Assembly: GCF_035917575.1 (NCBI RefSeq)
Contig: NZ_CP109090.1
Span: 7,688,001-7,752,000, forward strand
DNA length: 64,000 bases
Direction: 5' to 3'
DNA from: Streptomyces sp. NBC_01788
GTDB lineage: Bacteria > Actinomycetota > Actinomycetes > Streptomycetales > Streptomycetaceae
Under the pieces are notes generated by a model. The model was not told where the DNA came from and made no database searches. It worked only from the letters and a program-made list of their open reading frames with translations. The position numbers and the translations under genes were made by a program. Every line of letters begins with the position of its first letter. Position 1 is the stretch's first letter. Of this stretch, positions 16,369 to 46,154 are shown in pieces.

Positions 16369-16961
16369 CGCGGCTCCTGCGACTGTGGCGCACCCCGGCG
16401 CATGAGCGTGTCCAGGGGGACGAACGCCGGAGCCGCCTGCCGCTCGGCCGCGGCGGCCACCGCCTCCACCGCCGCCAGTTCGGGCGCGGCGGCGAGCACG
16501 GCGGCACGGACGGCGTCGCTCACGTCGTCCGTGCCGCCGCCGCACCCGGCACCGCACCCGCCGCCGCCCGTGGTGACCCGCACCCGAGCCACTTGCTCCT
16601 CCACGCCCACCCACTCGACGTCGCCGCCGCGCTCCCGGACGGCCGGGCGCAGCCGTTCGACGGCGCGCTCCGCCCGGCGCTCGGCCGGCTCGGGGTGGAT
16701 CTCGTGCAGGACCAGCAGATGGCCCACCAGCTCGTCGTCGGTCAGACGCCCCGTCAGTTCACCGTCTGCGCGGTCGAGCACGCGGCCCAGCGCCTCGCCG
16801 TACACCTCGGTCAGCAGCCGCACCGCCTCCAGGGCGGACCGCACGGTCGGCCCCGGAGCGGCCTCGAGGCCCGCGAGGAGTTCGTCGAGCCGGGCGAGCC
16901 GCGCCTCGACGTCCGGGTCCGCGAGCCGGCCGGACCGGGTGCCCTGCTCCGTGTCAGACAT
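16365..16961 (-). CDS. NifU-like protein of the hydrogenase operon
   Basis: 198-residue protein. The N-terminal half is helical with a HEIHPEPAERR motif; the C-terminal half resembles the NifU C-terminal Fe-S scaffold domain (VEEQVARVRVTTGGGG, then GCGAGCGGG). The usual NifU CXXC is replaced here by Cys136-X3-Cys140 in a Gly-rich loop. It may supply or hold Fe-S clusters for the small subunit. Its start overlaps the end of large-subunit copy A by 8 bp (16954-16961), and the A of its ATG is the last base of the duplicated hhyL block, so the duplication ends exactly where this gene begins. Confidence 0.75.
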   Translation of the reverse strand: MSDTEQGTRSGRLADPDVEARLARLDELLAGLEAAPGPTVRSALEAVRLLTEVYGEALGRVLDRADGELTGRLTDDELVGHLLVLHEIHPEPAERRAERAVERLRPAVRERGGDVEWVGVEEQVARVRVTTGGGGCGAGCGGGTDDVSDAVRAAVLAAAPELAAVEAVAAAAERQAAPAFVPLDTLMRRGAPQSQEPR

Positions 16962-18747
16962 GGTCGGTTCCGTAGGTGGGGGTGTGGGTGGTGGTGAGGG
17001 TTTTGCCGTTGCCGAGGTACATGTGGACGCCGCAGGGGAGGCAGGGGTCGAAGCTGCGGACGGTGCGCATGATGTCGACGCCTTTGAAGGTGTCGGGGTC
17101 GTTTTCTTCGAAGATGGGTTGTCCTTGGACGGCGTCTTCGTAGGGGCCGGGGGTGCCGTAGGGGTCGCGGGGGCTGGCGTTCCAGGGGGTGGGTGGGTAG
17201 GGGTGGTAGTTGGCGATTTTCTGGTTTTTGATGACGAGGTGGTGGGAGAGGACGCCGCGGACGGCTTCGTGGAAGCCGCAGCCGATGGCTTCGTCGGGGA
17301 CTTGGAAGTTTTCGAAGACTTTGGTTTCGCCGGCGCGGACGAGGGTTTGGGCTTGTTCGAGGAATTGGAGGGCCATGGCGGCGGCGTAGGCGATGAAGTA
17401 GGGGCGGGCTCGGTCGCGTTCGATGGTGTTGGACCATTGGGGGATGGTCCATTCGAGGGTGGTTTCGGGGAGTTTTTCGCCGTGGGGGAGGGTGATGCGG
17501 ACGCTGTGGCCGGTGGCTTTGATGTAGGGGGTGTCGACGAGTCCGTTGAGGGCGGTGGACCAGAGGCGGGCGAGGGGGCCGCCGCCGGTGTCGAGGGCGA
17601 GGTGCTGGCCGGTTTCGGGGTGGTGCCAGCGGGGGCTCATGACCCAGCTGTAGTTGTGGTCGAAGGCGCGTTTTTGGGGGTGGGGGAGGGTGGTCTGGTT
17701 CCAGGGGTGGCGGATGTCGACGGGGTTGCCGAGGGGGTCGTGGGTGACGAAGGGTTCTTCGGAGGTCCAGTCGTCGTAGTAGGAGGAGCCGAGGAGGATG
17801 CGCAGGCCGAGGTTGATGTCGACGAGGTTGTTGGTGACGAGTTGGCCGTCGACGATGATGCCGGGGGTGACGTACATGGCCTTGCCCCAGTGGTTCATCG
17901 TTTCGTAGCGGTAGTCGACGATGTCGGGGTTTTGCCAGGCGCCCCAGCAGGCCAGGAGGATGCGGCGGCGGCCGACTTCTTCGTAGCCGGGCAGGGCCTG
18001 GTAGAAGAAGTCGAAGACGTCGTCGTTGAGGGCGACGGCTTGTTTGACGAAGTCGATGACGCGCATGAGGCGGGCGAGGTAGTCGGTGAAGACGGTGGGT
18101 TGGGGCATGGTGCCCACGCCGCCGGGATAGAGGGTGGAGGGGTGGACGTGGCGTCCTTCCATGAGGCAGAACATTTCCCGGGTGATGCGGGACATCTTCA
18201 GTGCCTGTTTGTAGATTTCGCCTTCGAAGGGGTTGAAGGCGCGCATGATGTCGGCGATGGTGCGGTAGCCGTGGAGGTGTCCTCGGGGGGCTTCGGTGCG
18301 TTCGGCGCGGGCGAGGACGCTGGGGTTGGTGGCTTTGACCATGGCTTCGCAGAAGTCGACGAAGACGAGGTTGTCCTGGAAGATGGTGTGGTCGAACATG
18401 TACTCGGCGGCTTCGCCGAGGTTGGTGATGTGTTCGGCGAGCGGTGGGGGTTTGACGCCGTAGGCCATCTGCTGGGCGTAGTTGGAGCAGGTGGTGTGGT
18501 TGTCGCCGCAGATGCCGCAGATGCGTGAGGTGATGAAGCCGGCGTCGCGGGGGTCCTTGCCCTTCATGAACACCGAGTAGCCGCGGAACAGGGACGAGGT
18601 GGAGTGGCACTCCACGACCTCCCGGTTCGCGAAATCGATTTTCGTGTAGATGCCCAGATTCCCGATGATCCGCGTGATCGGATCCCAGGACATGTCCACG
18701 ATCTGAGCGGGCTTACGCCCCGCCCGACGCGCCTCGGTGGTCGTCAT
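16954..18747 (-). CDS. hhyL: [NiFe]-hydrogenase large subunit, copy A (group 1h type)
   Basis: 597-residue catalytic subunit. The L1 motif RICGICGDNH (Cys77, Cys80) and the L2 motif DPCLPCGVH (Cys569, Cys572, His575) supply the four Ni-Fe ligands. After His575 a 22-residue tail should be removed by the maturation protease. Sequence style (MSWDPITRIIGNLGIYTKID, no signal) fits the actinobacterial high-affinity class. It is 1,787 bp identical to copy B at 44361 apart from two synonymous bases (18469 and 17956) and differs in protein only at the last two residues (HV versus QG), inside the cleaved tail. No small-subunit gene precedes it; instead a 505-aa gene ends 5 bp upstream, and NifU-like, DUF5947-like and hypA genes follow. 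It would have to pair with HhyS encoded 25 kb away. Confidence 0.97.
   Translation of the reverse strand: MTTTEARRAGRKPAQIVDMSWDPITRIIGNLGIYTKIDFANREVVECHSTSSLFRGYSVFMKGKDPRDAGFITSRICGICGDNHTTCSNYAQQMAYGVKPPPLAEHITNLGEAAEYMFDHTIFQDNLVFVDFCEAMVKATNPSVLARAERTEAPRGHLHGYRTIADIMRAFNPFEGEIYKQALKMSRITREMFCLMEGRHVHPSTLYPGGVGTMPQPTVFTDYLARLMRVIDFVKQAVALNDDVFDFFYQALPGYEEVGRRRILLACWGAWQNPDIVDYRYETMNHWGKAMYVTPGIIVDGQLVTNNLVDINLGLRILLGSSYYDDWTSEEPFVTHDPLGNPVDIRHPWNQTTLPHPQKRAFDHNYSWVMSPRWHHPETGQHLALDTGGGPLARLWSTALNGLVDTPYIKATGHSVRITLPHGEKLPETTLEWTIPQWSNTIERDRARPYFIAYAAAMALQFLEQAQTLVRAGETKVFENFQVPDEAIGCGFHEAVRGVLSHHLVIKNQKIANYHPYPPTPWNASPRDPYGTPGPYEDAVQGQPIFEENDPDTFKGVDIMRTVRSFDPCLPCGVHMYLGNGKTLTTTHTPTYGTDHV
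16961..18747 (-). repeat. Inverted 1,787-bp repeat, left arm (hhyL copy A)
   Basis: This block matches 44361-46147 in reverse orientation with two mismatches (18469 C versus coding A at 44639; 17956 G versus coding G at 45152 on the other strand, i.e. CTC versus CTG). Homology starts at the A of the start codon: upstream bases GTCAC here and ACCGAG there do not match. It ends at ...GACCA, after which the copies read TGTCTGA and AGGCTGA. The two arms bracket 25.6 kb. Confidence 0.97.
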
Positions 18748-18752
18748 GTGAC

Positions 18753-20270
18753 TTACTGCCCCTCACTGTTCGGGTTCCGGGGATCGGTGTACGGCTCCAG
18801 CTCGTCGGGCCGGAAGTAGTGGAAGCGGCCGTACCAGGCGTGCAGTTCGGCCGCGGGGTCGTCGTCGAGGGTGACGGCGAGGTGCACGCTGCCGTCCACG
18901 TCGTGGAAGACCGCGGCCACCTGTGCGGTCCGCCCGGCCAGGAACATGTCCTGGGCGTCGGCGCCCCGGCCACGGGGACGCAGCAGGACACGGCTGCCGC
19001 TTCCCACGGGCACGCCGTCGACGAGCACCGTCTCCGTGGTGGGGGAGAGGCCGTCGTCACCGCCCTCCTGCCACCAGGCGGGCCGGTCCACGCCGAGGCC
19101 CCCGGTGGCGGCAGGCCCGGCGGGGGCCAGCGAGCGGATGGCGCCGTGCAGCCGGGACAGGACCTCCGGCGGCATGTTGTCCACCCGGTCCAGGATCTCG
19201 GCGGCGCGCGGGTCGGTCGCGCGGGCCTCGCGCTTCTCCTCGTCGGTCAGGAGCATCGTCCGCAGCGTCAGGATCTCGTCGATCTCCGCCGCGTCGTGCA
19301 GGTCGCCCGGACTCTCGGGCGCGACCTGCGGACGGTCGGGCAGGATGATCGGCGCGGACAGCAGCACGGGGCCGGTGTCACCGTCCGACGGCCGCGCGGG
19401 ATGCGCGGCGCCGGTGCCGGCGTCCGGGGCGGGCGGTGCGCCGCCGAGGACGGGGAAGGTGAACGCGTTGCGGCAGCCGCGGACGTGCTCCAGCAGGTCC
19501 GCGGGCGGGTCGGTCAGCGAGACGAACTCCACGCCCGTACCGCCGATGAGGGTGTGCGTGGCGATGAGCGCCTGGCGCAGTGCCGTGTCCCGCGGGGCCC
19601 GCGGGTCCGCCGCGTGCCCGGTGTTCTCGGTGCGCACGCGCAGCCGGACCAGGCCGTCCGCGAGCCGCTCGGCCGTGAGTGTGGTGTCCGCCCGGATCTC
19701 CGTGCGCCGCCGTACGATCCGCCCGGCGCCCCCGGGCAGCGGCTCGCTCTCCTCACCGGCCGCCGCTCCCACGGGGGCGGTGTGCTCCCGCCGCAGCAGG
19801 TCCTCCAGCGGTACGACGAGGTCGCTCTCACGCGGCACCGCCTCGTCGAAGGTCAGGTGGGTCGTGCCGTCGCCGGTCCGCAGCGACTCGACGGGACGGT
19901 TTGTGCCGTCCGGGCCGGTCTCCTCCACCTGCTTGTGCTGCGCCTGGAGGTAGCGCACCCGGATCCGCAGGACGGCGTCGGGCGCGTGGACCCGCAGCAG
20001 GCACTCGGTCCGCTGGTACCAGGAGTCGGCGGAGCCGGACACGCCGACCGTGACGGGCCCGTCGTGCTCCACCCAGTTTCGCGGCGCCAGCACCCCGAAC
20101 TGCCACCGGACGCGGTTCTTGGGGGAGGAGCGGCGGTACGGATAGAGGAGGTAGCCCTCGTAGAGGACGGCGTCGGCGACCGCGCCCACCTGCTCGAACG
20201 GCCGCTCGCCGGAGCCGACCGGCACGGCGCCGTCGCCGCCCACGGCACCCTCGACCACAGCATCCGGCAT
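18753..20270 (-). CDS. Large hypothetical protein heading the hydrogenase copy A operon
   Basis: 505-residue soluble protein of unrecognised family. The N-terminal two thirds look beta-rich (YEGYLLYPYRRSSPKNRVRW; WYQRTECLLRVHAPDAVLRI); residues about 330-390 are helical (EILTLRTMLLTDEEKREARA); the C-terminus is beta-rich with aromatic residues (AELHAWYGRFHYFRPDELEP). No Cys cluster, signal peptide or membrane helix stands out. The start at 20270 has an excellent GGAGGAGAG ribosome-binding sequence; an upstream ATG at 20321 lacks one. Its stop is 5 bp from hhyL copy A, so the two must be co-transcribed. A role in hydrogenase assembly or in binding electron acceptors is inferred only from context. 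Confidence 0.8.
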   Translation of the reverse strand: MPDAVVEGAVGGDGAVPVGSGERPFEQVGAVADAVLYEGYLLYPYRRSSPKNRVRWQFGVLAPRNWVEHDGPVTVGVSGSADSWYQRTECLLRVHAPDAVLRIRVRYLQAQHKQVEETGPDGTNRPVESLRTGDGTTHLTFDEAVPRESDLVVPLEDLLRREHTAPVGAAAGEESEPLPGGAGRIVRRRTEIRADTTLTAERLADGLVRLRVRTENTGHAADPRAPRDTALRQALIATHTLIGGTGVEFVSLTDPPADLLEHVRGCRNAFTFPVLGGAPPAPDAGTGAAHPARPSDGDTGPVLLSAPIILPDRPQVAPESPGDLHDAAEIDEILTLRTMLLTDEEKREARATDPRAAEILDRVDNMPPEVLSRLHGAIRSLAPAGPAATGGLGVDRPAWWQEGGDDGLSPTTETVLVDGVPVGSGSRVLLRPRGRGADAQDMFLAGRTAQVAAVFHDVDGSVHLAVTLDDDPAAELHAWYGRFHYFRPDELEPYTDPRNPNSEGQ

Positions 20271-20368
20271 CTGGCTCTCCTCCGACTCGCAGGTTCGCCA
20301 TGCCTTCCACCACCCACCCACCCCTCACGCGCCCTCTCCCCCTCCTGCCCAGCGCTGTTGGGCCGTCC

Positions 20369-20444: not shown

Positions 20445-21803
20445 TCAGCCCGGCAGGCGCGGCACGCGCAGGGCCAGCAGCGCCACGTCGTCGTCGTAGC
20501 CGTCCTGGTGGCCGAGCAGCGCGTCGCACAGCGCGTCCAGCGGGTCGGAGGCCAGGGCGGCGGCGTGGTCCGCCAGGTCCCGCAGGCCGGCGTCGATGTC
20601 CCGGTCACGGCGCTCGATCAGGCCGTCGGTGAACAGCAGCAGGGTGCTCTCCGGGGGCAGCGGGTGCCGGTGGTCGGGACGCGGCAGGCCCGGCTGCACG
20701 CCGACCGGGATACCGTGCGCGTCCGGCGCGAGCCACTGGGCCGTGCCTTCGGCGGTGATCAGCAGCGGGGGCGGGTGCCCGGCGTTGGTCCAGCTCAGAA
20801 CGTACCCGGCGGCCGGCTCCCGCTCGATGCGGGCCAGGACCAGGGTGGCGGCCGGCGGCTCGTCGACCGCGGTGAGCGCCCGGTCGAGCCGGTCCACGAT
20901 CAGGCTGGGCGGCCCGCACCGGTCGAAGGCCAGGGCCCGCAGCATGTTGCGGATCTGCCCCATCAGCGGCGCCGCCTCCACGTCGTGCCCGGTCACGTCC
21001 CCGACGACGACGAGGACCGCCCCGTCGGGCAGTCCGAGGGCGTCGTACCAGTCACCGCCGAGGTGGGGAAGCTCGGACGCCGGCTCGTAGCGGGCCTCCA
21101 CGAGCAGCGGGGACAGGTCGGGCAGCACCGGCAGCAGACGGCGCTGGAACTGCTCGGCGGACCGCTTGAGCCGCCCGTACAGGCGGGAGTTCTCGATGCT
21201 GACGCTCGCGGCGCTGGCCAGCGCGGTCAGCAGGGCCTCGTCGGCGTCGGCGAACGGCGTGCCGTCCTCCTTGTCCGCCAGGTAGAGGTTGCCGTACACG
21301 GTGTCGCGCACGCTCAGCGGGACTCCGAGCAGCGTGGTCATGACCGGGTGGCCCTCCGGGAAGCCGACCGAGCGGGGGTCGGCGGCGATGTCGTCGACCC
21401 GGAGCGGCTTGGGATCCTCGATCAGGCGGCCCAGCAGGCCATGGCTCTGTGGCAGCCCGGACTCGGCCAGGAGCCGCTCGGCGTCGGCGGCGCCGACGGT
21501 GATCAGGTCGATGATCTCCCCGCCCTCGCTGAGCACGCCGAGGGCGCCGTAGCGCGCGGCGACGAGGTCGGTGCCCGCCCGCACCAGATGCCGCAGCACG
21601 GTGCGGGTGTCCATGTCGGCGCTGATGGCCACCACCGCGTCCAGCAGGCAGTGCAGCCTGCGCCGGTCCAGGCTGAGCTGCCGGATCTGGGCGCTCAGCT
21701 CCTCGACGGCCTCGCCACCGCGCGTCCGGCCGCCTTCCGGGGCCGCGCCGGTCCCGTGGCCGGCCGCCTCTTCAGGCTCCGGTCGCCGTGGATCGTCCGA
21801 CAT
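20445..21803 (-). CDS. GAF-PP2C (SpoIIE-type) serine/threonine phosphatase
   Basis: 452-residue cytosolic phosphatase. After a disordered N-terminus and a coiled-coil segment (about 35-55), a GAF domain spans about 55-205 and a SpoIIE/PP2C domain about 220-450, with ELPHLGGDWYDALGL, VVVGDVTGHDVEAA, WTNAGHPPPLL and FTDGLIERRD carrying the metal-binding Asp residues. Such proteins typically dephosphorylate anti-anti-sigma factors (STAS proteins) in sigma-factor partner-switching. No STAS partner is adjacent. It is the first of five PP2C enzymes in an 18-kb stretch. Confidence 0.92.
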   Translation of the reverse strand: MSDDPRRPEPEEAAGHGTGAAPEGGRTRGGEAVEELSAQIRQLSLDRRRLHCLLDAVVAISADMDTRTVLRHLVRAGTDLVAARYGALGVLSEGGEIIDLITVGAADAERLLAESGLPQSHGLLGRLIEDPKPLRVDDIAADPRSVGFPEGHPVMTTLLGVPLSVRDTVYGNLYLADKEDGTPFADADEALLTALASAASVSIENSRLYGRLKRSAEQFQRRLLPVLPDLSPLLVEARYEPASELPHLGGDWYDALGLPDGAVLVVVGDVTGHDVEAAPLMGQIRNMLRALAFDRCGPPSLIVDRLDRALTAVDEPPAATLVLARIEREPAAGYVLSWTNAGHPPPLLITAEGTAQWLAPDAHGIPVGVQPGLPRPDHRHPLPPESTLLLFTDGLIERRDRDIDAGLRDLADHAAALASDPLDALCDALLGHQDGYDDDVALLALRVPRLPG

Positions 21804-22011
21804 GGGGCACCTCCCGGCAGGGCCGGTGCTCGGCGGTGCTCGTGCTCACTCACCGTACGGGCCCCCGCACGGCCACCTTACGCCGAGCGGGGAGGCGGCG
21901 GCCTCCTCCCGCCCGCCACGAGCCGGGGAGGGAAGCCCGAAGGCGGCGGCGCAGCGGCGTACGCTACGGAACTGCCCAGCTCAGGTCCCCTCGTGAGGAA
22001 GAGTCACCGTG

Positions 22012-22344
22012 ATGCAGAAGATCTCCCTCGACGCCCTCGCCCGCGAGCATCTCGGACGCGCCGAGTCGTCCTCGGCCGGCCGCAGCGCGGAGACCGTCTA
22101 CGGCGGTCACGAACACGTGCTGCGCCAGACCCTGATCACGCTGCGTGCCGGCACGGCCCTCGCCGAGCACGACAACCCCGGTGAGGCGACCGTGCTCGTG
22201 CTGCGCGGGCGCGTGGTGCTGCACAGCGGCGACACGTCGTGGGAGGGCATGGCGGGGGACCTGCTCATCGTGCCGCAGTCCCGGCACAGCCTGGAGGCCG
22301 TCGAGGACGCCGCGGCCCTGCTGACGGTCACCAAGGCACCCTGA
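22012..22344 (+). CDS. Small cupin-domain protein
   Basis: 110-residue single-domain cupin. It shows the first cupin motif in degenerate form (RAGTALAEHDNPGEATVLVL, one His and one Glu) and the second motif (AGDLLIVPQSRHSLEAVED). Metal ligands are therefore plausible but incomplete. An adjacent in-frame GTG at 22009 is an alternative start; GAGGAAGAG lies just upstream. Small cupins of this kind often sense or bind a metabolite; function unknown. The group 2 sigma gene begins 160 bp downstream. Confidence 0.8.
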   Translation: MQKISLDALAREHLGRAESSSAGRSAETVYGGHEHVLRQTLITLRAGTALAEHDNPGEATVLVLRGRVVLHSGDTSWEGMAGDLLIVPQSRHSLEAVEDAAALLTVTKAP

Positions 22345-22503
22345 CCAGCCAATTCTCCGTGTCCCTCCGCCGCAAGCGATGGGTGGAGGGACGCGCCCCG
22401 CACAGCTCCGAGGTCTGATCCCCGCTCCCTCGTCCGCCGCACGTATGGCTCGCGGCCGCTCCGGGTACCCGAACGACGCCCGCGACGAGATGAGGAGCGC
22501 GCG

Positions 22504-23523
22504 ATGGCTCCCGCGAAGCAGAGGACGGCGGCGTCCGCAGGCGGCGGACGACGGGTGTCGGCACGTGCCAGCAAGCGGTACGACGCGATGCCCGAACTCG
22601 ACGGCGAACCCGATCTGCTCGGCCAGTACCTGCGCCAGATCGGCGCCACACCGCTGCTCGACGCGGAGGGCGAGGTGCGCCTCGCCCGGCGCATCGAAGC
22701 CGGTCTGCAAGCCACCGAGGAACTGAACCAGGCCGACGAGGGCGGCCGTGAACTCGCGCCGGAGCGGCGGCGGGAACTGGAGGCCGCCCTGCGGGTCGGC
22801 CAGGAGGCCAAGGACCACATGGTGCGGGCCAACCTCCGGCTCGTCGTGGCCATGGCCAAACGGCACGCACACCGCGGGCTGCCACTGCTCGACGTCATCC
22901 AGGAGGGCAACCTGGGGCTCATCCGGGCCGTGGAGAAGTTCGACCACACCAAGGGGTTCAAGTTCTCCACCTACGCCACCTGGTGGATCCGCCAGGCCAT
23001 GGAACGCGGCCTCGCCACGCACGCGCGTTCCGTGCGGCTGCCGATGCATGTCGTGGAGCAGCTGCAGAAGCTCGCCAAGATCGAGCGCAAGCTGCAGCTG
23101 CGCCTCGAACACCAGCCGACCGTCGAGGAGGTCGCCGGCGAGAGCGGCCTCGCCGAGGACAAGGTCGTCTGGCTGCGCCGCGTCGGCCGACAGGTGATCA
23201 GCCTGGACATGCCGGTGGACGACACCGGAGAGACCGTGGTCGGCGACCTCATCCCCGACACGGAGGTGCTGCAGGCCCCCGAGGTCGCCGAGTACCAGGC
23301 GCTGGCCGAGGAACTCCGGGAGGCCGTCGACACCCTGGCACCGCGCGAGGCCCTCATCCTCAGCCTGCGATACGGCCTGCACGACGGTCACCAGCGCACC
23401 CTGCACGAGGTCGCCCAGCACGTGGGCCTGACCCGGGAGCGCGTACGCCAGCTGGAGAAGCAGTCACTGGCCCAGCTCAGGGAACAGGAGCCGGGCGAAC
23501 GGCTCCTTGCGTGGGCGAGCTGA
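22504..23523 (+). CDS. Group 2 RNA polymerase sigma factor (HrdA/C/D type)
   Basis: 339-residue sigma-70 family protein. Region 1.2 (DLLGQYLRQIGATPLLD), region 2 with RANLRLVVAMAKRH and the -10-recognition stretch FDHTKGFKFSTYATWWIRQA, region 3 (PTVEEVAGESGLAED) and region 4 with the -35-binding helix VGLTRERVRQLEKQSL are all present. It lacks the long N-terminal extension of the essential HrdB, which places it in non-essential group 2. Substrate promoters should resemble the vegetative consensus. It is monocistronic; nearby PP2C phosphatases could belong to an anti-sigma circuit, but no anti-sigma factor is adjacent. Confidence 0.93.
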   Translation: MAPAKQRTAASAGGGRRVSARASKRYDAMPELDGEPDLLGQYLRQIGATPLLDAEGEVRLARRIEAGLQATEELNQADEGGRELAPERRRELEAALRVGQEAKDHMVRANLRLVVAMAKRHAHRGLPLLDVIQEGNLGLIRAVEKFDHTKGFKFSTYATWWIRQAMERGLATHARSVRLPMHVVEQLQKLAKIERKLQLRLEHQPTVEEVAGESGLAEDKVVWLRRVGRQVISLDMPVDDTGETVVGDLIPDTEVLQAPEVAEYQALAEELREAVDTLAPREALILSLRYGLHDGHQRTLHEVAQHVGLTRERVRQLEKQSLAQLREQEPGERLLAWAS

Positions 23524-23606
23524 GGCGCCCGGGCGGAACAGTGCGCCCGGCACGATCGCCGGGCGCACGGCTCCACTCGGGCCGCCGCGACGCGCGGCGG
23601 CGGCCG

Positions 23607-23777
23607 TCACCAGCGGTACCAGCGGCCCCTGCGGCCGCCGGCGCCCTCGGACCGTGCGACGAAACCGAGCAGCCACAGCACGAGCACGATGATCGCGATC
23701 CACCACAGCGCCTTCAGGGCGAACCCGGCGCCGAAGAGGATCAGGGCGAGCAGGAGAACGAGCAGCAAGGGAACCAT
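23607..23777 (-). CDS. Small hydrophobic membrane protein (56 aa)
   Basis: A 56-residue peptide missed by length cut-offs. It begins MVPLLLVLLLALILFGAGFA, continues with a second hydrophobic span (ALWWIAIIVLVLWLLGFVA) and ends in a basic, Trp-containing tail (GRRGRWYRW). Two membrane segments with a short turn. This is a recurring streptomycete small hydrophobic protein; role unknown. A GGAGGTGGATATAC leader gives a good ribosome-binding site, supporting the start. Confidence 0.75.
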   Translation of the reverse strand: MVPLLLVLLLALILFGAGFALKALWWIAIIVLVLWLLGFVARSEGAGGRRGRWYRW

Positions 23778-23977
23778 GTATATCCACCTCCGGACCTTCG
23801 AATGCCCGGCCTACGCGCGAACACACCCTGGGAAATACGGTGTTTCCGCACGTGAAGCAGGGGAACTCGTGGATGCTGCCCGCGAGTCGGCCAGTTGGGC
23901 CGGACGGGGTCGGACAGAGGACGGCTTCCGGTGTCGAGCCGGAGCCGGCCCGGGTGCGCGGATCTCCGGAGGCAGAG

Positions 23978-25051
23978 GTGACGGTGCGTCGTATCGGCCT
24001 GGTCGTCCATGGCGGGCGCGGTGAGGCCGCGGCTGCCGCCCGCATCGTGCGCGAGTGGTGCGACGAGCACGGCGTGGGGTGCGCGGACATCGACGTGTGG
24101 CACGACGGAGGGCGGCGCAGCGCCCGGGAGGAGATCGAGGCCGCGGGCGATCCGGACCTCGTCGTCACCCTGGGCGGTGACGGCACGTTCCTGCGCGGTG
24201 CCCGGCTGGCCGCCGTGAACGACGCCCTGGTCCTGGGCGTCGACCTCGGCCGGGTGGGTTTCCTCACGGAGGTGCCGGTCACGGTCGTGCGCGCCGCGCT
24301 GGACGCCGTCCTCGCGGAGCGCCTCACCGTGGAGAACCGGATGATGCTCAACCTGCGCGCCTCGCGGCGCCTGGAGGTGCCGGCCGACATCGAGGAGCTG
24401 ATGCGCTACGGCCGCCGTCCGCTCCTGCCGCCACCGCGGGTGCGCGCCGACTGCCAGGCCGGCGGTGACTGGGGCATCCCGCTGAACGTCACCGCGCTGA
24501 ACGACGTCGTGCTGGAGAAGCTGGCCCGGGACCGGCAGGTGTCCGTCGGCGTCTACCTCGCGGGCCGCCTCCTGGCGTCCTATTCGGCCGACGCGCTGCT
24601 GGTCGCCACCCCGACCGGCTCCACGGCCTACAGCTTCGCCGCCGGGGGGCCGGTCGTCTCGCCCCGCGCGGACGCCCTCGTCTTCACGCCGGTCGCCCCG
24701 CACATGGTCTTCAACCGCTCGGTCGTGGCCGCGCCGGACGAACCGATCGGCCTGCGCGTCCTGGAACGCTCGGGCCAGGCCGCCGTCACCATCGACGGCC
24801 AGTTGCGCGGTGTACTCGACCCGGGCGACTGGATCGGCGTCTACGCCGCGTCGCGCCGGCTGCGGGCCGTCCGCCTCGGTCCCATGGACTTCTACGGCCG
24901 TCTGCGGGAGCGCATGAACCTCACGGACGCCCCGGCCGCGGTCGCCGACGGCACCCCGGCCCCCTTGTGGCCGGTGACGTCGCCGCGACCGGCCGATCTC
25001 GCCCACCTGGCCCTGCCGGCCCGCCCCGGTGAGGTCTCATGGGTCCCGTGA
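23978..25051 (+). CDS. nadK: NAD kinase
   Basis: 357-residue enzyme phosphorylating NAD to NADP. It has the catalytic/ATP site LVVTLGGDGTFLRGARLA near residue 70, LGRVGFLTEV and the NAD-binding loop VATPTGSTAYSFAAGGP. It is longer than the minimal enzyme, with a Pro-rich insertion around residues 150-170 (RYGRRPLLPPPRVRADC) and a disordered C-terminal tail. Start GTG at 23978 follows GGAGG by 5 bp; GTG at 23984 is an alternative. Streptomycetes often have more than one NAD kinase, so this may be a paralogue. Confidence 0.92.
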   Translation: MTVRRIGLVVHGGRGEAAAAARIVREWCDEHGVGCADIDVWHDGGRRSAREEIEAAGDPDLVVTLGGDGTFLRGARLAAVNDALVLGVDLGRVGFLTEVPVTVVRAALDAVLAERLTVENRMMLNLRASRRLEVPADIEELMRYGRRPLLPPPRVRADCQAGGDWGIPLNVTALNDVVLEKLARDRQVSVGVYLAGRLLASYSADALLVATPTGSTAYSFAAGGPVVSPRADALVFTPVAPHMVFNRSVVAAPDEPIGLRVLERSGQAAVTIDGQLRGVLDPGDWIGVYAASRRLRAVRLGPMDFYGRLRERMNLTDAPAAVADGTPAPLWPVTSPRPADLAHLALPARPGEVSWVP

Positions 25052-25079
25052 ATCCGCGGTGGACCGTCCCGGCCGCCGC

Positions 25080-26246
25080 TCAGGGGCGGGGCTCCGTGGG
25101 GAGGCGGTGGGCGGCGAGGGCGGCGAGGTCGTCGTCGAGGTGTCCGTCGCTGTAGTCGAGCAGATCCGCGTGCAGGCGCTCCAGCAGCGCGCCCGGCGGA
25201 AGGCCGGTCCAGGGCCGGACCCGCTCGGCGAGCGGGTAGAAGGCGCCGGCGGAATCGCGGGTCTCGGTGACGCCGTCGGTGTACAGAAGCAACGTGTCGC
25301 CCGGCCGGAAGGGCACGACGTCCACCCGGTACCCGTTGCCGAGCAGCCCGCCGAGGTTGATGGGCGGCGAGGGCTCGGTGGGTTCCAGCTCGCCGACCCG
25401 GCCGCCGCTGACCAGCAGCGGAGGCGGGTGGCCGCAGTTGACGAGACGTACGACGTGCTCGTCGTCGGGGATCTCCGCGAACACCGCTGTCACGAAGCGC
25501 TCGGCCGCCTCGGTGCCGGGAAGCTGCTCGGCGTAGCGGCTCATGCTGCGCTCCATGCGCCGGGCCAGACCGGCCAGGTCGGGCTCGTCGGGCGCGGCCT
25601 CGCGGAAGGCTCCGAGCACCGTCGCGGCCGTCTCCACGGCGACCAGGCCCTTGCCGCGGACGTCGCCGACGAGCAGCCGCACTCCGTGCGCCGTCGGCAC
25701 CGCCTCGTACAGGTCGCCGCCGATCTGCGCCTCGGCCGCCGCGGAGAGGTACAGGGTCTCGATGGAGACCTGGCCGAGCCTGTGGGGGACCGGGCGCAGT
25801 AGGACGCGCTGCGCGGTCTCGGCCACGGAACGCACCGTGGCCAGGGTGTGCTCCCGGCGCGCACGGTGCCAGGCGAGGATCGTGCCGAGGATGCCCACCA
25901 CGAACGTGCAGATGTAGTTGGCCACGTAGTGGCGGTCCCAGAGATTGCCCACGGTGCGGCCCGCACAGCACGGCGTGCCGGCCAGGACGCCCTCCAGGAC
26001 GATGGCGAACACCGTGACGGCGGCGACCACGCGGGGGCCGTACCCGAAGGCGGCCACCAGCGGCAGAGCGGTGAGCACGAAGCTCACGGGCCACAGCGCC
26101 GGGGTGAGCGGCTCGACGGCGAGGACCACCACGACGTAGAAGACCGGCAGCCAGCGCAGCCACAGGGGCTGGGCCGGCACCTGCGACCGCCCTCTCGGCT
26201 CGCGCGGGCGGCGGTCCTCGCGGAAAGACTCAGGCGGCCTGTTCAC
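25080..26246 (-). CDS. Membrane-anchored PP2C (SpoIIE-type) phosphatase
   Basis: 388-residue protein with four to five predicted membrane helices in residues 30-125 (LPVFYVVVVLAVEPLTPALW; FVLTALPLVAAFGYGPRVVA; YICTFVVGILGTILAWH) and a cytosolic PP2C domain at about 165-380 (EAQIGGDLYEAVPTAHGVRL, VGDVRGKGLVAVETA, NCGHPPPLL, YTDGVTETRD). No sensory PAS or GAF domain. The same architecture recurs at 31762-32931, suggesting paralogues. It probably acts on a phosphorylated STAS protein or another cytosolic target. Confidence 0.9.
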   Translation of the reverse strand: MNRPPESFREDRRPREPRGRSQVPAQPLWLRWLPVFYVVVVLAVEPLTPALWPVSFVLTALPLVAAFGYGPRVVAAVTVFAIVLEGVLAGTPCCAGRTVGNLWDRHYVANYICTFVVGILGTILAWHRARREHTLATVRSVAETAQRVLLRPVPHRLGQVSIETLYLSAAAEAQIGGDLYEAVPTAHGVRLLVGDVRGKGLVAVETAATVLGAFREAAPDEPDLAGLARRMERSMSRYAEQLPGTEAAERFVTAVFAEIPDDEHVVRLVNCGHPPPLLVSGGRVGELEPTEPSPPINLGGLLGNGYRVDVVPFRPGDTLLLYTDGVTETRDSAGAFYPLAERVRPWTGLPPGALLERLHADLLDYSDGHLDDDLAALAAHRLPTEPRP

Positions 26247-26360
26247 AGGTACTCCCGGCGGGCTTGACCAAGAGGACCAGCCTGCTGTGCCGTACCGTCA
26301 CCGCCTCGGCATTGCTCCAGGCAAGGGCATGTCAGCGAGGCCGGCAGCCGCCACGTACGG

Positions 26361-26400
26361 GCACGACCGGGGCGCCGCGCGAGACGCGCCCCGGTCGTGC
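26361..26400 (-). terminator. Terminator downstream of the xylanase gene
   Basis: A perfect 15-bp stem (GCACGACCGGGGCGC pairing with GCGCCCCGGTCGTGC) with a 10-base loop, 20 bp past the xylanase stop. No other gene end is near. Confidence 0.85.
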
Positions 26401-26419
26401 GTGACGTGGTCCGGCCCGG

Positions 26420-27866
<1,447 letters not shown>

Positions 27867-27947
27867 CGGTTCGCGCACGATGTGCTGCGGGATGGCTGAA
27901 GCTTGACCTCCCGCTATTCCTTTGGGAGTTACGGGTGGCTCCAGTGG

Positions 27948-27976
27948 TTGACGCGACGGTGCGACGCCTCTAGCGT
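27948..27976 (+). promoter_or_regulatory. Predicted esterase promoter
   Basis: TTGACG (27948-27953), 17-bp spacer, TAGCGT (27971-27976). This mirrors the xylanase promoter on the other strand; its operator lies at the equivalent distance downstream (28003-28013). Confidence 0.6.
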
Positions 27977-28002
27977 GACGCGGCGCCTTCCCGAAATCGA
28001 TG

Positions 28003-28013
28003 CGAAAGTTTCG
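28003..28013. promoter_or_regulatory. Palindromic operator CGAAAGTTTCG (esterase side)
   Basis: Second perfect copy, 17 bp upstream of the esterase start and about 27 bp after the predicted -10. A related half-site CGAAATCGA lies just upstream at about 27992. Placement after the promoter suggests roadblock repression, symmetric with the xylanase gene. Confidence 0.75.
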
Positions 28014-28030
28014 AAACAAAGGATGCCGAC

Positions 28031-29335: not shown

Positions 29336-29348
29336 GCAGCCACGCGGA

Positions 29349-29397
29349 CGCGCCCCGCCACCCCCACGAAAGCGGTCGTCGGGGCGGTCGGGGCGCG
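29349..29397. terminator. Possible terminator between convergent genes
   Basis: Imperfect inverted repeat CGCGCCCCGCCACCCC / GGGGCGGTCGGGGCGCG with a 16-base loop, between the esterase and SRPBCC stops. Weak because arms are not perfectly complementary. Confidence 0.4.
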
Positions 29398-36049: not shown

Positions 36050-36106
36050 GTTGTCAGTTCTAACACCGTGGTTCCCTGCCGGGCGACCGGTATGTCCGCT
36101 CCATTA

Positions 36107-38632
36107 CTATATGGATCGGTCAAGTCCTGAGGAGATCGATGGTTTTGCCCAGATGTCACTGGGGAGGGGCTGTTCCGCCCAGATCGTCTTGCCGGAGCCG
36201 GTGTACCGGGTGCCCCAGCGCTGGGCGAGCTGGGCGACCAGGAACAGACCCCGTCCGCCCTCGTCCGTGCTGCGCGCGCGCCGCAGGTGCGGGGAGGTGT
36301 GGCCGCCGTCCGAGACCTCGCAGATCAGGGTGCTCTCGTGGATGAGCCGCAGAGCGATCGGCCCGCGGGCGTGCCGGATGGCGTTGGTGACCAGTTCGCT
36401 GACGATCAGCTCGGTGGTGAAGGCCAGCTCGTCGAGGCCCCACTGGGACAGCCGGTCGCTGACGTCGTCGCGCACGACGCGCACGGCCGACGGGTCGGGG
36501 GGCACGTCCCAGGACGTCACACGGTCGGGGCTGAGGACGCGTGTGCGGGCGACGAGGAAGGCGACGTCGTCACGCGGCCGGTCGGCCAGCAGGGCGCGGA
36601 CCATGACGTCGCAGATCTCCTCCAGCGGCCGGTCGGGGTGGGCCAGGGCGAAGCACAGCCGCTCGATCCCGACGTCGACGTCCTGTTCCGCCGCCTGGAT
36701 CAGCCCGTCGGTGTAGAGGGCGACGACGCTGCCCTCCTCCAACGGGATCTCGGCCGACTCGAACGGCAGGCCGCCGAGGCCCAGGGGCGGGCCGGCGGGA
36801 ATGTCGGGGAACTCCACGGGCTCGGTCAGGTGCGCGACGGCCGGGCTGGGGTGTCCCGCGCGGGCCACGACCATCGTCCGGGCGATGGGGTCGTAGATGG
36901 CGTACACACAGGTCGCGCCGGCCGCCGCCGGGCCCTCGGCGGCTGCCTCCGCCTCGTCCGACAGACGCATCACCAGGTCGTTGACGTGCGCCAGCAGCTC
37001 GTCCGGGGACTGGTCCAGGTCGGCCAGCGTCTGCACGGCGGCGCGCAGCCGGCCCATGCTGGCCGCGGCGTGCAGGCCGTGTCCGATGACGTCGCCCACC
37101 ACCAGCGCGACCCGGGCGCCGGAGAGCGGGATGACGTCGTACCAGTCCCCGCCCACCCCCGACTCCGCGTCGGCGGGGAGATAGCGGTGGGCGACCTCGA
37201 CGGCGTTGTGCCGGGGCAGGTTGGGCGGCAGCAGGCTGGTCTGGAGGGTGAGCGCGGCCTCGTGCTCGCGGGCGTAGCGCCGGGCGTTGTCCACGCACAC
37301 GGCGGCCCGTGCCACCAGATCCTCGATCAGGAGCTGGTCGTCCTCGGTGAAGGGATCCGGGTTCTCCCAGCGCAGCAGGGTCACCACCCCCATCGTGACG
37401 CCGCGGGCCCGGAGCGGCAGCACCAGGTGCGTGTGCACGCCGAACCGGTTGATCCCGGTCCACCGCACCGGGTCGTCGGGCAGCCAGGGCGTCCCCGGGC
37501 CGAGGGCCTCGCGGCTGGGCTCCCCGCTGGCCAGGCACCGGTTCTGCAGCGACCCGGACGGGTACCGGATGGGTTCGCCGACCTCGGCGATCACCTCGGG
37601 CAGGTCCGGCCGGATCGACAGATGGGCCGCCCGGCGCAGCGTGATGGGGCCGTCCGGGGAGCGGGTGGGCGGCCCCTCTCCGGCGGTCGCCACGTCCAGG
37701 AGGTCGATGGCCACGAAGTCGGCGAGTTGAGGGACGGCGACCTCCGCGAGCTCCTGGACCGTCCGGCCCAGGTCCAGTGTGGTGCCGATGTGATCGGCGG
37801 CGGCGTTCAGCAGCACCAGCCGCTCGCGGGTGGGGTCGGGGGCGGTGACGTTCCGGGCGGCGTAGCAGATACCGAGCGTTCCGCCCGCCGCGTCGTGCAG
37901 CGGGAAGAAGGAGCGCGGCCGGGAACGCTCACGGCCGGCCCGCCCCGGCCTGCCGCGCCGGGGCGCCGCGTGGGCCACGGTCACCTGACGCTGCCCGGAG
38001 ACCATCCCGCGCCGGGCATGCCGCGTCACAACAGCCGAACTCCGCCCCATCCGGGCACCGGCCGGGATGGTACTGGAAGGGGTGGTGGGGGAGGCGGCAC
38101 CGGTCGGGGCGGCGCTGGAGGGGGAGGAGCCGGCCGGGGCGGTGCCGGCCGGGCCGGCGCCGGGAGTGACGGGGCCGGTCGCGGCGGGGGCGCTCGCGCC
38201 GGAGCCGGTAGGGACCGCGCCGGGCGTGGTGGGGCCGGTCGCGGCGGCGTCGGCAGGGGCGGGGCTCGTGGGACGGGTGGCGGCCGGGGCGGCTGCGGCC
38301 AGGAGCAGCCAGTCGCGGCGGTCGCCGGCGGTGAGCAGCGGGCACACCCGCACGGCGAGCCGTACCGCGTGGCCGACGCGGTCGTGGACCGTGAGCACCG
38401 CGTCCCCGGCATGACCGCTCCGGCACAGCCGGGACATCGCGGCCGTCGGATCGCGGCCGCGCAGCAGCGCCCGCGCGGGATGCCGCACGACCTCGGCGGC
38501 GGAGTAGCCGAGCAGGTCCTGGGCTCCCAGGCTCCAGTAGGTGATCAGCCCGTCGGCGTCGATGACCGCCACCGCCGTGGTCGTGCTGAACGGATCGCCC
38601 GGACTCGTACCGCTCGCGCCGTTGATGCCCAT
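36107..38632 (-). CDS. Multidomain PAS-GAF-PP2C-HATPase phosphatase with a long Pro/Ala linker
   Basis: 841-residue cytosolic relative of the gene at 33251. The order is PAS (about 15-110, VAVIDADGLITYWSLGAQDL), a 70-residue low-complexity linker of Pro, Ala, Thr, Gly and Ser (about 118-190), a GAF-like region (about 270-430), PP2C (about 450-675, SGVGGDWYDVIPLSG, VGDVIGHGLHAA, RAGHPSPAV, YTDGLIQAAEQ) and an HATPase (about 700-830, ELIVSELVTNAIRHA, GRGLFLVAQLAQRWG). No membrane helices, so its input is soluble. Start at 38632 is the first ATG giving the PAS domain; its ribosome-binding site is weak. Confidence 0.88.
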   Translation of the reverse strand: MGINGASGTSPGDPFSTTTAVAVIDADGLITYWSLGAQDLLGYSAAEVVRHPARALLRGRDPTAAMSRLCRSGHAGDAVLTVHDRVGHAVRLAVRVCPLLTAGDRRDWLLLAAAAPAATRPTSPAPADAAATGPTTPGAVPTGSGASAPAATGPVTPGAGPAGTAPAGSSPSSAAPTGAASPTTPSSTIPAGARMGRSSAVVTRHARRGMVSGQRQVTVAHAAPRRGRPGRAGRERSRPRSFFPLHDAAGGTLGICYAARNVTAPDPTRERLVLLNAAADHIGTTLDLGRTVQELAEVAVPQLADFVAIDLLDVATAGEGPPTRSPDGPITLRRAAHLSIRPDLPEVIAEVGEPIRYPSGSLQNRCLASGEPSREALGPGTPWLPDDPVRWTGINRFGVHTHLVLPLRARGVTMGVVTLLRWENPDPFTEDDQLLIEDLVARAAVCVDNARRYAREHEAALTLQTSLLPPNLPRHNAVEVAHRYLPADAESGVGGDWYDVIPLSGARVALVVGDVIGHGLHAAASMGRLRAAVQTLADLDQSPDELLAHVNDLVMRLSDEAEAAAEGPAAAGATCVYAIYDPIARTMVVARAGHPSPAVAHLTEPVEFPDIPAGPPLGLGGLPFESAEIPLEEGSVVALYTDGLIQAAEQDVDVGIERLCFALAHPDRPLEEICDVMVRALLADRPRDDVAFLVARTRVLSPDRVTSWDVPPDPSAVRVVRDDVSDRLSQWGLDELAFTTELIVSELVTNAIRHARGPIALRLIHESTLICEVSDGGHTSPHLRRARSTDEGGRGLFLVAQLAQRWGTRYTGSGKTIWAEQPLPSDIWAKPSISSGLDRSI

Positions 38633-38760
38633 GCCTTCATCCTCATCCACGGGCAGGACCCCCACCAGCCAGGACCTCCACCGGCCGTGTTGCCGTCGGG
38701 GCCGGTGTACCGCCGCCCGGGAAACGGGTGGCGTGGGGGAGGCATGCGGGACGGGTGTGG

Positions 38761-39237
38761 CTAGGCCCCCGCCCCCAGTGCCTTCAGCGGCTCGTCGGTC
38801 AGCCGGTACACCGTCCACTCGTCCTGCGGGCGTGCACCAAGGGCCTCGTAGAAGCCGATCGCCGGCCGGTTCCAGTTCAGGACCGACCACTCGAGGCGCT
38901 CGTACCCGCGCTCGACGCACACCCGGGCCAGTTCCGTCAGCAGGGCCCGGCCGTATCCGCCGCCGCGGGCCTCCGGGCGGACGTAGAGGTCCTCCAGGTA
39001 GATGCCGTGCACGCCCCGCCAGGTGGAGAAGTTGAGGAACCACAGGGCGAAGCCCACCACGTCGCCGTCCGCGTCCTGCGCGATGTGCGCGAACGCCGCG
39101 GGCCGCTCGCCGAACAGTGCCTCGGCGAGCTGCTCCGGCGTCGCCCGTACCTCGTCCAAGGCCTTCTCGTACTCGGCCAGTTCGCAGATCAGGGCGTGGA
39201 TGACGGGGACGTCGGCGGGGGTCGCGGTGCGAATCAT
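38761..39237 (-). CDS. GNAT-family acetyltransferase
   Basis: 158-residue N-acetyltransferase. The acetyl-CoA loop is LYVRPEARGGGYGRALLTEL; the N-terminus (IRTATPADVPVIHALICELA) and LEWSVLNWNRPAIGFYEALG are typical of the spermidine/thialysine (SSAT-like) branch. It would acetylate a small amine; substrate not predictable. Start 39237 follows ATGAT; an upstream ATG at 39255 is in frame. Confidence 0.88.
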   Translation of the reverse strand: MIRTATPADVPVIHALICELAEYEKALDEVRATPEQLAEALFGERPAAFAHIAQDADGDVVGFALWFLNFSTWRGVHGIYLEDLYVRPEARGGGYGRALLTELARVCVERGYERLEWSVLNWNRPAIGFYEALGARPQDEWTVYRLTDEPLKALGAGA

Positions 39238-42893: not shown

Positions 42894-43250
42894 GGTCGCG
42901 CACTGAACCCGGTCCGTGCGGCGGTGGCGCAGCAGCTCGGTCCGCGCGGCGGTGGCGCACCTCGCTCGGTCCGGTCGACGGCGTTGTCATGACTGGGTCC
43001 GGCTCGATGCGTCCCGGCCGCGTCGCGGCGGCGCCGTTCACTCCACTGACCGTCACAACGAGCGGTGTTCCTCGACCGGTGTGAGCCTGGTCAGGGATTC
43101 GGTGGGTGCGTCGCGCCGCCGTGGCCCGGAGGACCGCGCGTCCTCCCCGGCCGGTCCGGCCGGTACCGCGACGTCCGTCCCGGCATGCCGCGGTCCTCGG
43201 GCCGCCGGCTGCGACCGACTCCGCCACCGACCCCATGGGAGGCCGACGAC

Positions 43251-44339
<1,089 letters not shown>

Positions 44340-44360: not shown

Positions 44361-46147
44361 ATGACGACCACCGAGGCGCGTCGGGCGGGGCGTAAGCCCG
44401 CTCAGATCGTGGACATGTCCTGGGATCCGATCACGCGGATCATCGGGAATCTGGGCATCTACACGAAAATCGATTTCGCGAACCGGGAGGTCGTGGAGTG
44501 CCACTCCACCTCGTCCCTGTTCCGCGGCTACTCGGTGTTCATGAAGGGCAAGGACCCCCGCGACGCCGGCTTCATCACCTCACGCATCTGCGGCATCTGC
44601 GGCGACAACCACACCACCTGCTCCAACTACGCCCAGCAAATGGCCTACGGCGTCAAACCCCCACCGCTCGCCGAACACATCACCAACCTCGGCGAAGCCG
44701 CCGAGTACATGTTCGACCACACCATCTTCCAGGACAACCTCGTCTTCGTCGACTTCTGCGAAGCCATGGTCAAAGCCACCAACCCCAGCGTCCTCGCCCG
44801 CGCCGAACGCACCGAAGCCCCCCGAGGACACCTCCACGGCTACCGCACCATCGCCGACATCATGCGCGCCTTCAACCCCTTCGAAGGCGAAATCTACAAA
44901 CAGGCACTGAAGATGTCCCGCATCACCCGGGAAATGTTCTGCCTCATGGAAGGACGCCACGTCCACCCCTCCACCCTCTATCCCGGCGGCGTGGGCACCA
45001 TGCCCCAACCCACCGTCTTCACCGACTACCTCGCCCGCCTCATGCGCGTCATCGACTTCGTCAAACAAGCCGTCGCCCTCAACGACGACGTCTTCGACTT
45101 CTTCTACCAGGCCCTGCCCGGCTACGAAGAAGTCGGCCGCCGCCGCATCCTGCTGGCCTGCTGGGGCGCCTGGCAAAACCCCGACATCGTCGACTACCGC
45201 TACGAAACGATGAACCACTGGGGCAAGGCCATGTACGTCACCCCCGGCATCATCGTCGACGGCCAACTCGTCACCAACAACCTCGTCGACATCAACCTCG
45301 GCCTGCGCATCCTCCTCGGCTCCTCCTACTACGACGACTGGACCTCCGAAGAACCCTTCGTCACCCACGACCCCCTCGGCAACCCCGTCGACATCCGCCA
45401 CCCCTGGAACCAGACCACCCTCCCCCACCCCCAAAAACGCGCCTTCGACCACAACTACAGCTGGGTCATGAGCCCCCGCTGGCACCACCCCGAAACCGGC
45501 CAGCACCTCGCCCTCGACACCGGCGGCGGCCCCCTCGCCCGCCTCTGGTCCACCGCCCTCAACGGACTCGTCGACACCCCCTACATCAAAGCCACCGGCC
45601 ACAGCGTCCGCATCACCCTCCCCCACGGCGAAAAACTCCCCGAAACCACCCTCGAATGGACCATCCCCCAATGGTCCAACACCATCGAACGCGACCGAGC
45701 CCGCCCCTACTTCATCGCCTACGCCGCCGCCATGGCCCTCCAATTCCTCGAACAAGCCCAAACCCTCGTCCGCGCCGGCGAAACCAAAGTCTTCGAAAAC
45801 TTCCAAGTCCCCGACGAAGCCATCGGCTGCGGCTTCCACGAAGCCGTCCGCGGCGTCCTCTCCCACCACCTCGTCATCAAAAACCAGAAAATCGCCAACT
45901 ACCACCCCTACCCACCCACCCCCTGGAACGCCAGCCCCCGCGACCCCTACGGCACCCCCGGCCCCTACGAAGACGCCGTCCAAGGACAACCCATCTTCGA
46001 AGAAAACGACCCCGACACCTTCAAAGGCGTCGACATCATGCGCACCGTCCGCAGCTTCGACCCCTGCCTCCCCTGCGGCGTCCACATGTACCTCGGCAAC
46101 GGCAAAACCCTCACCACCACCCACACCCCCACCTACGGAACCGACCA
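44361..46147 (+). repeat. Inverted 1,787-bp repeat, right arm (hhyL copy B)
   Basis: Partner of the left arm at 16961-18747; the two are in opposite orientation with only 44639 (A) and 45152 (G) differing. The arms coincide with the hhyL reading frame but not with any flanking DNA on either side. The segment between them, 18748-44360, would invert if they recombined. Confidence 0.97.
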
Positions 46148-46154
46148 AGGCTGA
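44361..46154 (+). CDS. hhyL: [NiFe]-hydrogenase large subunit, copy B (group 1h type)
   Basis: 597-residue catalytic subunit, identical to copy A through residue 595 (RICGICGDNH and DPCLPCGVH ligand motifs, predicted cleavage after His575), with QG as the last two residues. It is co-transcribed with hhyS 21 bp upstream and is followed 36 bp later by a 68-aa gene. From about codon 93 to the end Glu is almost always GAA, Lys AAA and Gln CAA, and G-ending codons are scarce; the first 90 codons and hhyS use normal GAG/AAG/CAG and CTG/GTG. This copy-plus-hhyS pair is the only complete structural pair in the window, so it is the default hydrogenase. Confidence 0.97.
   Translation: MTTTEARRAGRKPAQIVDMSWDPITRIIGNLGIYTKIDFANREVVECHSTSSLFRGYSVFMKGKDPRDAGFITSRICGICGDNHTTCSNYAQQMAYGVKPPPLAEHITNLGEAAEYMFDHTIFQDNLVFVDFCEAMVKATNPSVLARAERTEAPRGHLHGYRTIADIMRAFNPFEGEIYKQALKMSRITREMFCLMEGRHVHPSTLYPGGVGTMPQPTVFTDYLARLMRVIDFVKQAVALNDDVFDFFYQALPGYEEVGRRRILLACWGAWQNPDIVDYRYETMNHWGKAMYVTPGIIVDGQLVTNNLVDINLGLRILLGSSYYDDWTSEEPFVTHDPLGNPVDIRHPWNQTTLPHPQKRAFDHNYSWVMSPRWHHPETGQHLALDTGGGPLARLWSTALNGLVDTPYIKATGHSVRITLPHGEKLPETTLEWTIPQWSNTIERDRARPYFIAYAAAMALQFLEQAQTLVRAGETKVFENFQVPDEAIGCGFHEAVRGVLSHHLVIKNQKIANYHPYPPTPWNASPRDPYGTPGPYEDAVQGQPIFEENDPDTFKGVDIMRTVRSFDPCLPCGVHMYLGNGKTLTTTHTPTYGTDQG

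Follow-up and report, generated by a model that had tools for sequence, protein, structure and literature searches.

The window considered here comprises 64,000 nucleotides of Streptomyces sp. NBC_01788 (assembly GCF_035917575.1, contig NZ_CP109090.1, positions 7,688,001 to 7,752,000) and carries two inverted copies of hhyL, the gene for a [NiFe]-hydrogenase large subunit (Table 1). By direct comparison the copies, each 1,794 bp long, differ at four bases: base 279 of the coding sequence (G in A, A in B; Q93 as CAG or CAA) and base 792 (C in A, G in B; L264 as CTC or CTG), both synonymous, and bases 1788 and 1790, by which copy A ends in ...DHV* and copy B in ...DQG*. A sequence-only reading had described two inverted copies with just two synonymous differences in their first 1,787 bases, encoding the same mature protein; the first statement is confirmed base by base, and the second agrees with all residue differences falling after His575, the position matched by the last residue of the structure chain 5aa5_C. 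That chain end is consistent with predicted cleavage after His575, so the mature large subunits from A and B should be identical. Codon 93 is CAG in 11 of the 12 sequences compared from outside the window, including those of the sister genome (G421) and S. kebangsaanensis, and CAA in S. seoulensis; the CAA of copy B is thus probably a new change. For codon 264 the direction of change is ambiguous: CTC is found in A, G421, S. kebangsaanensis and S. seoulensis, CTG in B, G077, G192 and five of six loci with an unsplit operon. The genome is a single contig of 8,269,445 bp, in which a search finds exactly two matches to hhyL and one to hhyS, the small-subunit gene.

The hhyL protein has the nickel-dependent hydrogenase domain PF00374 and contains the motifs RICGIC and DPCLPCGVH, in what we presume to be their usual roles. 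With copy B as the query, the best solved relative is 5aa5_C (E 3.7e-300; runner-up 3.9e-44), and for hhyS it is 5aa5_A (E 6.4e-166); 5aa5, HofG/HofK, is thereby the closest solved structure to both subunits, and we take it to represent the group 1h, or actinobacterial-type, hydrogenases. The gene set holds hhyS and a NifU-like, HhyE-like gene as well as hhyL, yet divided over two loci. By domain, nearest structure and gene set, the operon is predicted to encode a high-affinity group 1h [NiFe]-hydrogenase of the type that acts on atmospheric H2.

Half A reads 522-hhyL-nifU-DUF5947-hypA (522 being a gene for a protein of 522 residues), followed by the hyp maturation genes on the opposite strand; half B, in opposite orientation and 25.6 kb away, reads hhyS-hhyL-p68-p69. 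Half A thus lacks a small subunit to go with its large one, and half B has both subunits but not the NifU-like protein; combined, they give the ancestral gene set once each, with hhyL alone present twice. The DUF5947 gene had first been placed in an open reading frame at 15758-16507, which is the wrong frame and was replaced. Here and in five of the six other genomes with a split operon, hhyS has a gene for a PucR-type regulator upstream of it; none is seen in the stretch of G192.

Table 1. Features of the two hydrogenase half-operons and of the segment between them (window coordinates).
Feature	Position	Strand	Remark
HypX-like	7054-8787	+	enoyl-CoA hydratase and formyl transferase domains (Pfam); presumably HypX; start of maturation block 7054..15266
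HycI-type protease	8784-9386	+	maturation gene
hypB	9483-10256	+	maturation gene
hypF	10253-12625	+	maturation gene
hypC	12699-13031	+	maturation gene
hypD	13031-14191	+	maturation gene
hypE-like	14271-15266	+	maturation gene; end of maturation block
hypA	15338..15697	-	half A
p1, DUF5947 protein	15772..16365	-	PF19372; half A; start codon approximate
NifU-like gene	16365..16961	-	PF01106, HhyE-like; ATG overlaps hhyL-A end by 8 bp
hhyL copy A	16954..18747	-	[NiFe]-hydrogenase large subunit; between 522 gene and nifU-like gene; PF00374 E 3e-63
hhyL-A leader	18748..18775	-	...ACAGTGAGGGGCAGTAAGTCAC; overlaps end of 522 frame
522-residue operon protein	18753..20321	-	no Pfam match; first gene of half A
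Inter-copy segment	18748..44360		25.6 kb between inverted copies; includes 522 gene and hhyS
hhyS small subunit	43065..44339	+	half B; 5' end of reading frame probably over-long
hhyL copy B	44361..46154	+	between hhyS and p68; 4 differences from copy A
p68, small operon protein	46191..46397	+	half B
p69, small operon protein	46394..46603	+	half B

The sequence-only reading took the flanks of the two copies to be unrelated. The DNA flanking A and B indeed gives no alignment in a self-comparison of the window, and the window's other repeats are only 68-71% identical except for one 47-bp inverted repeat; in ancestry, by contrast, both flanks derive from one operon. This is seen in the relatives, where hhyL was matched in 197 of 392 genomes (the position of hhyS was checked in part, least for distant matches near 70% identity) and where the counts of gene order rest on 80 named loci retained from 204 confirmed hhyL loci. 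In 73 of these 80, hhyL stands directly between hhyS and nifU; six more belong to split genomes, and the remaining one (L082) has a contig end inside the operon. The order hhyS-hhyL-nifU-DUF5947-p68, with DUF5947 in its correct frame, occurs in 71 of 80 loci, and the full order 522-hhyS-hhyL-nifU-DUF5947-p68-p69-hypA in 49, with nine more the same but for a detectable p69; the hyp genes are usually next, on the opposite strand (also in G067 and G080). In an overlapping draw hhyS adjoins hhyL in 27 of 29 loci, and by coordinates in 28 genomes of a set of 33, in which G421 is split, G379 was left out, G299 has an hhyL in pieces next to hhyS, G347 has fragments and G357 gives no hhyS match. The start of nifU overlaps the end of hhyL in all 73 unsplit loci tested (L055, unsplit, was left out), as it does in half A of NBC_01788, G077, G192, S. 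kebangsaanensis and G106, and, with GTG as the start codon, of S. seoulensis.

Among these relatives, G056 (L051), G347 and G299 have hhyS and/or hhyL in fragments or pieces, which suggests operon decay or poor sequence, and in G397, a genome with 7% contamination, hhyL gives two matches of equal score on separate contigs.

Six other genomes are split as the window is: G421, S. kebangsaanensis SUK12 (G239/G320), S. seoulensis A01 (G238/G382, chromosome record CP054936), NRRL S-340 (G077), G192 and G106. In a tree of HypD, HypE, HypF, HypB and NifU (70 tips; 10 of 80 entries, having fewer than three of the five marker genes, were dropped), all seven form one clade without other members (support 0.994); the hhyL nucleotide tree, which does not include G106, recovers the same clade (0.998), L055 being left out of both trees. 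The simplest reading of this clade is that the split arose once. A count of hhyL copies in these relatives, as the sequence-only reading had proposed, finds the gene in both halves in four of the seven (read base by base in NBC_01788, seen at the ends of contigs in S. kebangsaanensis and G106, and deduced for G421 from an assembly gap that fits the gene exactly) and in half A only in three (S. seoulensis, G077 and G192). The genes around it are sorted differently from lineage to lineage: DUF5947 is in half B in G077 and G106, and in half A in NBC_01788, G421, S. kebangsaanensis, S. seoulensis and G192. In S. seoulensis A01 a relic of about 50 bp of the hhyL 3' end persists between hhyS and p68, and in half B of G106 the hhyL stop leads into the first 17 bp of nifU, start codon included, which equal those of half A and run into DUF5947. 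Given the hhyL relic, the nifU-start relic and the varying place of DUF5947, the duplicated segment would have included at least hhyL-nifU-DUF5947; by gene order, it probably extended from hhyS through p69.

Two candidate relics were discarded. The 636-bp gap between hhyS and p68 in G077 is the DUF5947 gene, not a remnant of hhyL. DNA similarity upstream of the half-B hhyS, considered as a remnant of the 522 gene, is a gene for a hemerythrin-domain protein (PF01814) of some relatives; a protein search gave a single unconvincing match, on the opposite strand (39% over 64 residues, E 5e-4). The hemerythrin-domain gene lies upstream of hhyS in half B of S. kebangsaanensis (G239), S. seoulensis (G238), G077, G192 and G106, and has no match in the NBC_01788 window or the G421 stretch. 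Matches upstream of hhyS are found in 19 of the 80 loci (18 unsplit ones and L056 of S. kebangsaanensis), their position checked in part.

These observations bear on the proposal that the hhyL frame by itself was recently copied into a place next to hhyS in this genome. It would account well for an identity that spans just the frame and for the very low synonymous divergence between A and B (below). It is largely contradicted by the relatives: both contexts carry an almost complete hhyL in S. kebangsaanensis and its ends in G106, G421 has a copy B together with a gap at A, and S. seoulensis has a relic of copy B; moreover, copy B is the one at the ancestral position, after hhyS and before p68. 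Insertion of the frame is thus very unlikely. The sequence-only reading had offered gene conversion or copying of the frame alone in place of a segmental duplication; its first half is supported, and the second gives way to a multi-gene operon segment that would have been duplicated before at least seven species diverged, with complementary genes then lost.

The case for gene conversion rests on synonymous rates, on the tree and on partial tracts. In NBC_01788 the number of synonymous substitutions per synonymous site (dS) between A and B is 0.005 (2 of 411 sites), against 0.096-0.099 for hhyL to the sister G421, 0.19-0.20 to S. kebangsaanensis, 0.23 to S. seoulensis, 0.50 to G077 and 0.64 to G192. 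Other operon and flanking genes have dS of 0.05-0.17 to G421 and 0.11-0.47 to S. kebangsaanensis, which shows that hhyL does not change unusually slowly at synonymous positions. Copies A and B have the same base, different from that in copy B of G421, at 46 sites, and in the hhyL tree A and B pair with a support of 0.998, so that the paralogues, compared at base level in NBC_01788, are nearer to each other than to their orthologues. The duplication is nevertheless older than the speciations, since the same two contexts recur in several species of one clade; A and B being closer than the species pairs despite this age points to concerted evolution by gene conversion. One might suppose that selection acting on the DNA or codon sequence, without recombination, keeps the copies alike, since hhyL is conserved (protein identity 98% to G421 and 91-92% to S. 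kebangsaanensis). With 37-38 of about 411 synonymous sites changed relative to the sister, and the proportion of differing synonymous sites reaching 0.43 within the clade, this is contradicted, and it deserves virtually no credence.

Partial tracts beside unconverted sequence come from S. kebangsaanensis, where hhyL is cut by four contig ends of 1,752-1,791 bases each: in this draft the 1,754 bp from the ATG are identical in all four, while the last 37 bp show 11 differences between the two contexts. This is the pattern of a partial conversion tract, a converted hhyL body with an old, unconverted tail. The same tail speaks against an independent re-duplication of hhyL in each species after loss of one copy, which would also be expected to yield near-identical pairs within species; such a history further needs repeated insertion at the same site in four genomes, is at odds with the junctions, which are largely shared, and has only a very small probability. 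The G421 assembly has a contig that ends immediately ahead of the ATG of hhyL-A and a second that begins one base into the nifU start; since these ends flank exactly hhyL-A, the gap fits the repeat. In G106, contigs share 77 bases at the 5' end of hhyL and 77 at its 3' end. That the pair is a duplication made by the assembler has nothing in its favour and a practically nil probability: the NBC_01788 genome is a single contig, its two copies differ at four bases and in their flanks, three relatives have assemblies that break at hhyL as a collapsed repeat would, and other relatives show the products of decay. Taken together, dS, the 46 sites and the pairing of A with B support concerted evolution of the hhyL pair by gene conversion, as judged from sequence.

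A different kind of break was considered near residue 517-525 of hhyL in several relatives, as a candidate for site-specific integration of the kind that the hupL element of Anabaena reportedly undergoes in a hydrogenase gene, and was rejected as a sequencing or assembly failure. In G270 (L179, L206) and G418 (L180, L207) the break, near residue 517-521, carries CTGTCTCTTATACACA, which we take to be a Tn5/Nextera adapter end; G063 has a run of N. The contigs of G099 and G114 end at the same hhyL position.

The edges of the identity are sharp at both ends of the gene. At the 5' end, the hhyL-A leaders of NBC_01788, G421, S. kebangsaanensis, G106 and G192 resemble the spacer between hhyS and hhyL in the five unsplit loci compared, and in NBC_01788 this is read as the mark of a deletion of hhyS; the leader of copy B in NBC_01788 differs from this type, and homology between the copies therefore begins at the ATG or close to it. 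At the 3' end, copy A keeps the overlap with nifU (CCATGTCTGA) and copy B is without the nifU ATG (CCAAGGCTGA), a loss that gives rise to the difference between HV and QG. Since the two loci share no homology beyond hhyL any more, a conversion tract has to end close to the limits of the gene, and the sharp edges are best taken as the limits of the remaining homology.

These considerations suggest, with high confidence for the explanation as a whole, an ancestral segment duplication followed by reciprocal gene loss, with hhyL homogenised by conversion. In the ancestor of the clade, the segment hhyS-hhyL-nifU-DUF5947-p68-p69 would have been copied, inverted, to a site about 25-60 kb away; redundant genes would then have been deleted from either copy, the last pairs being resolved differently in each lineage. 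Recombination between the two hhyL genes would be of the RecA type, and by it one hhyL would keep being overwritten with the other, in a tract limited to the interval from the ATG to the hhyL 3' end because deletions removed the shared flanks.

Several points weigh against this history. Within-genome identity has been measured base by base in NBC_01788 alone; for S. kebangsaanensis and G106 it is deduced from collapsed assemblies, in which a few differences could hide, the middle of hhyL being unassembled in G106, and the hhyL-A of G421 is absent from its assembly, its presence being deduced. The inner branching of the clade is weak beyond (S. kebangsaanensis,(G421,NBC_01788)), with supports of 0.08 and 0.43, G192 and G077 pairing with 0.91. 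A search for relics of hhyS, p68 or p69 in half A and of the 522 gene in half B found none, so that for these genes it is gene order that speaks for duplication. The hhyL-A leader of G077 is B-like, not A-like, which implies a less simple history at that locus. Finally, the coupling of nifU to hhyL-A and the dispensability of hhyL-B, to which we now turn, are what we infer from sequence.

Both copies would produce the same mature large subunit, and nifU/hhyE would be translationally coupled to hhyL-A through the overlap of its start. Such coupling would make hhyL-A hard to lose and could explain why it is kept in all seven genomes (in G421 on the evidence of the gap), while copy B is missing in three; these three relatives suggest, in turn, that hhyL-B is dispensable. 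Its role is probably to top up the large subunit next to HhyS, perhaps under separate control, given the PucR-type regulator gene upstream of hhyS. The name hhyE for the NifU-like gene follows PMC6883350, in the part of that account which describes the M. smegmatis HhyE as having a NifU-like domain and being required for H2 oxidation by this hydrogenase. The S. avermitilis enzyme is described, in part of PMC4767420, as active in spores, its loss lowering spore viability.

As the copies are inverted, a crossover between them would flip the 25.6-kb segment, giving hhyS-hhyL-nifU-DUF5947-hypA and 522-hhyL-p68-p69; if this were a reversible switch, cells would alternate between two hydrogenase expression states. 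Such a switch is improbable. The readable junctions, both in NBC_01788 and the B junction in G421, show one state only, as do both junctions in G238, G077 and G192, where a single copy is left and flipping is no longer possible; the junctions of S. kebangsaanensis and G106 are unreadable as to state, and each assembly represents one state of a culture.

Apart from the hydrogenase genes, the inter-copy segment encodes SpoIIE phosphatases, a sigma factor, an NAD kinase, a GH10 xylanase, an aldo/keto reductase, a glyceraldehyde-3-phosphate dehydrogenase and the PucR-type regulator. The SpoIIE-type phosphatase genes number five (20445-39043) and include two dispersed paralogue pairs of about 68-70% DNA identity (33313-34463 with 36172-37325, and 25128-25844 with 31849-32568). 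The xylanase gene is oriented divergently from one for an esterase like polyhydroxybutyrate depolymerases (26420-29335), with a CBM2 domain in each. The 47-bp inverted repeat (15276-15322; 85%) lies between the convergent hypE and hypA genes and is probably a two-way terminator.

As far as they are described in PMC4767420 and PMC6883350, the group 1h operons of S. avermitilis and M. smegmatis are alike in holding hhyS, hhyL, a NifU-like HhyE and maturation genes; when hhySL was removed whole from S. avermitilis, activity was lost (PMC4767420, in the part concerned), whereas here the operon is halved and hhyL double. Long-lasting, recurrent concerted evolution is described for 26 prokaryotic genes, psbA, psbD and amoCAB among them, in PMC6053082, where, in the portions bearing on this, paralogues cluster by species as those of hhyL do and psbD copy types each have their own conserved synteny. 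Unlike that set, whose main text names no hydrogenase, the hhyL pair is found in one Streptomyces clade only. A literature search of titles and the starts of abstracts returned no report of a duplicated or converted hhyL in Streptomyces; conversion between bacterial duplicates is already well described, and what is new is this hydrogenase case, with its unusually readable history.

The seven related genomes would represent stages of one process, from segment duplication through reciprocal loss to a last redundant gene that is homogenised or deleted, and they let one ask why one duplicate stays and converts while its neighbours are sorted out. Draft assemblies hide such pairs, hhyL copies being absent or truncated by contig ends in the assemblies of G106, G421 and S. 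kebangsaanensis, and copy counts based on drafts can thus be wrong. A known counterpart lies in a different system, the tufA and tufB genes, which belong to different operons. In Salmonella these duplicate genes for EF-Tu are kept alike by gene conversion, as set out in part of PMC5485169, and the two hhyL copies resemble them in this; unlike tuf, hhyL is present as inverted copies in two complementary parts of what was once a single operon, and the duplicate is seen being lost in relatives.

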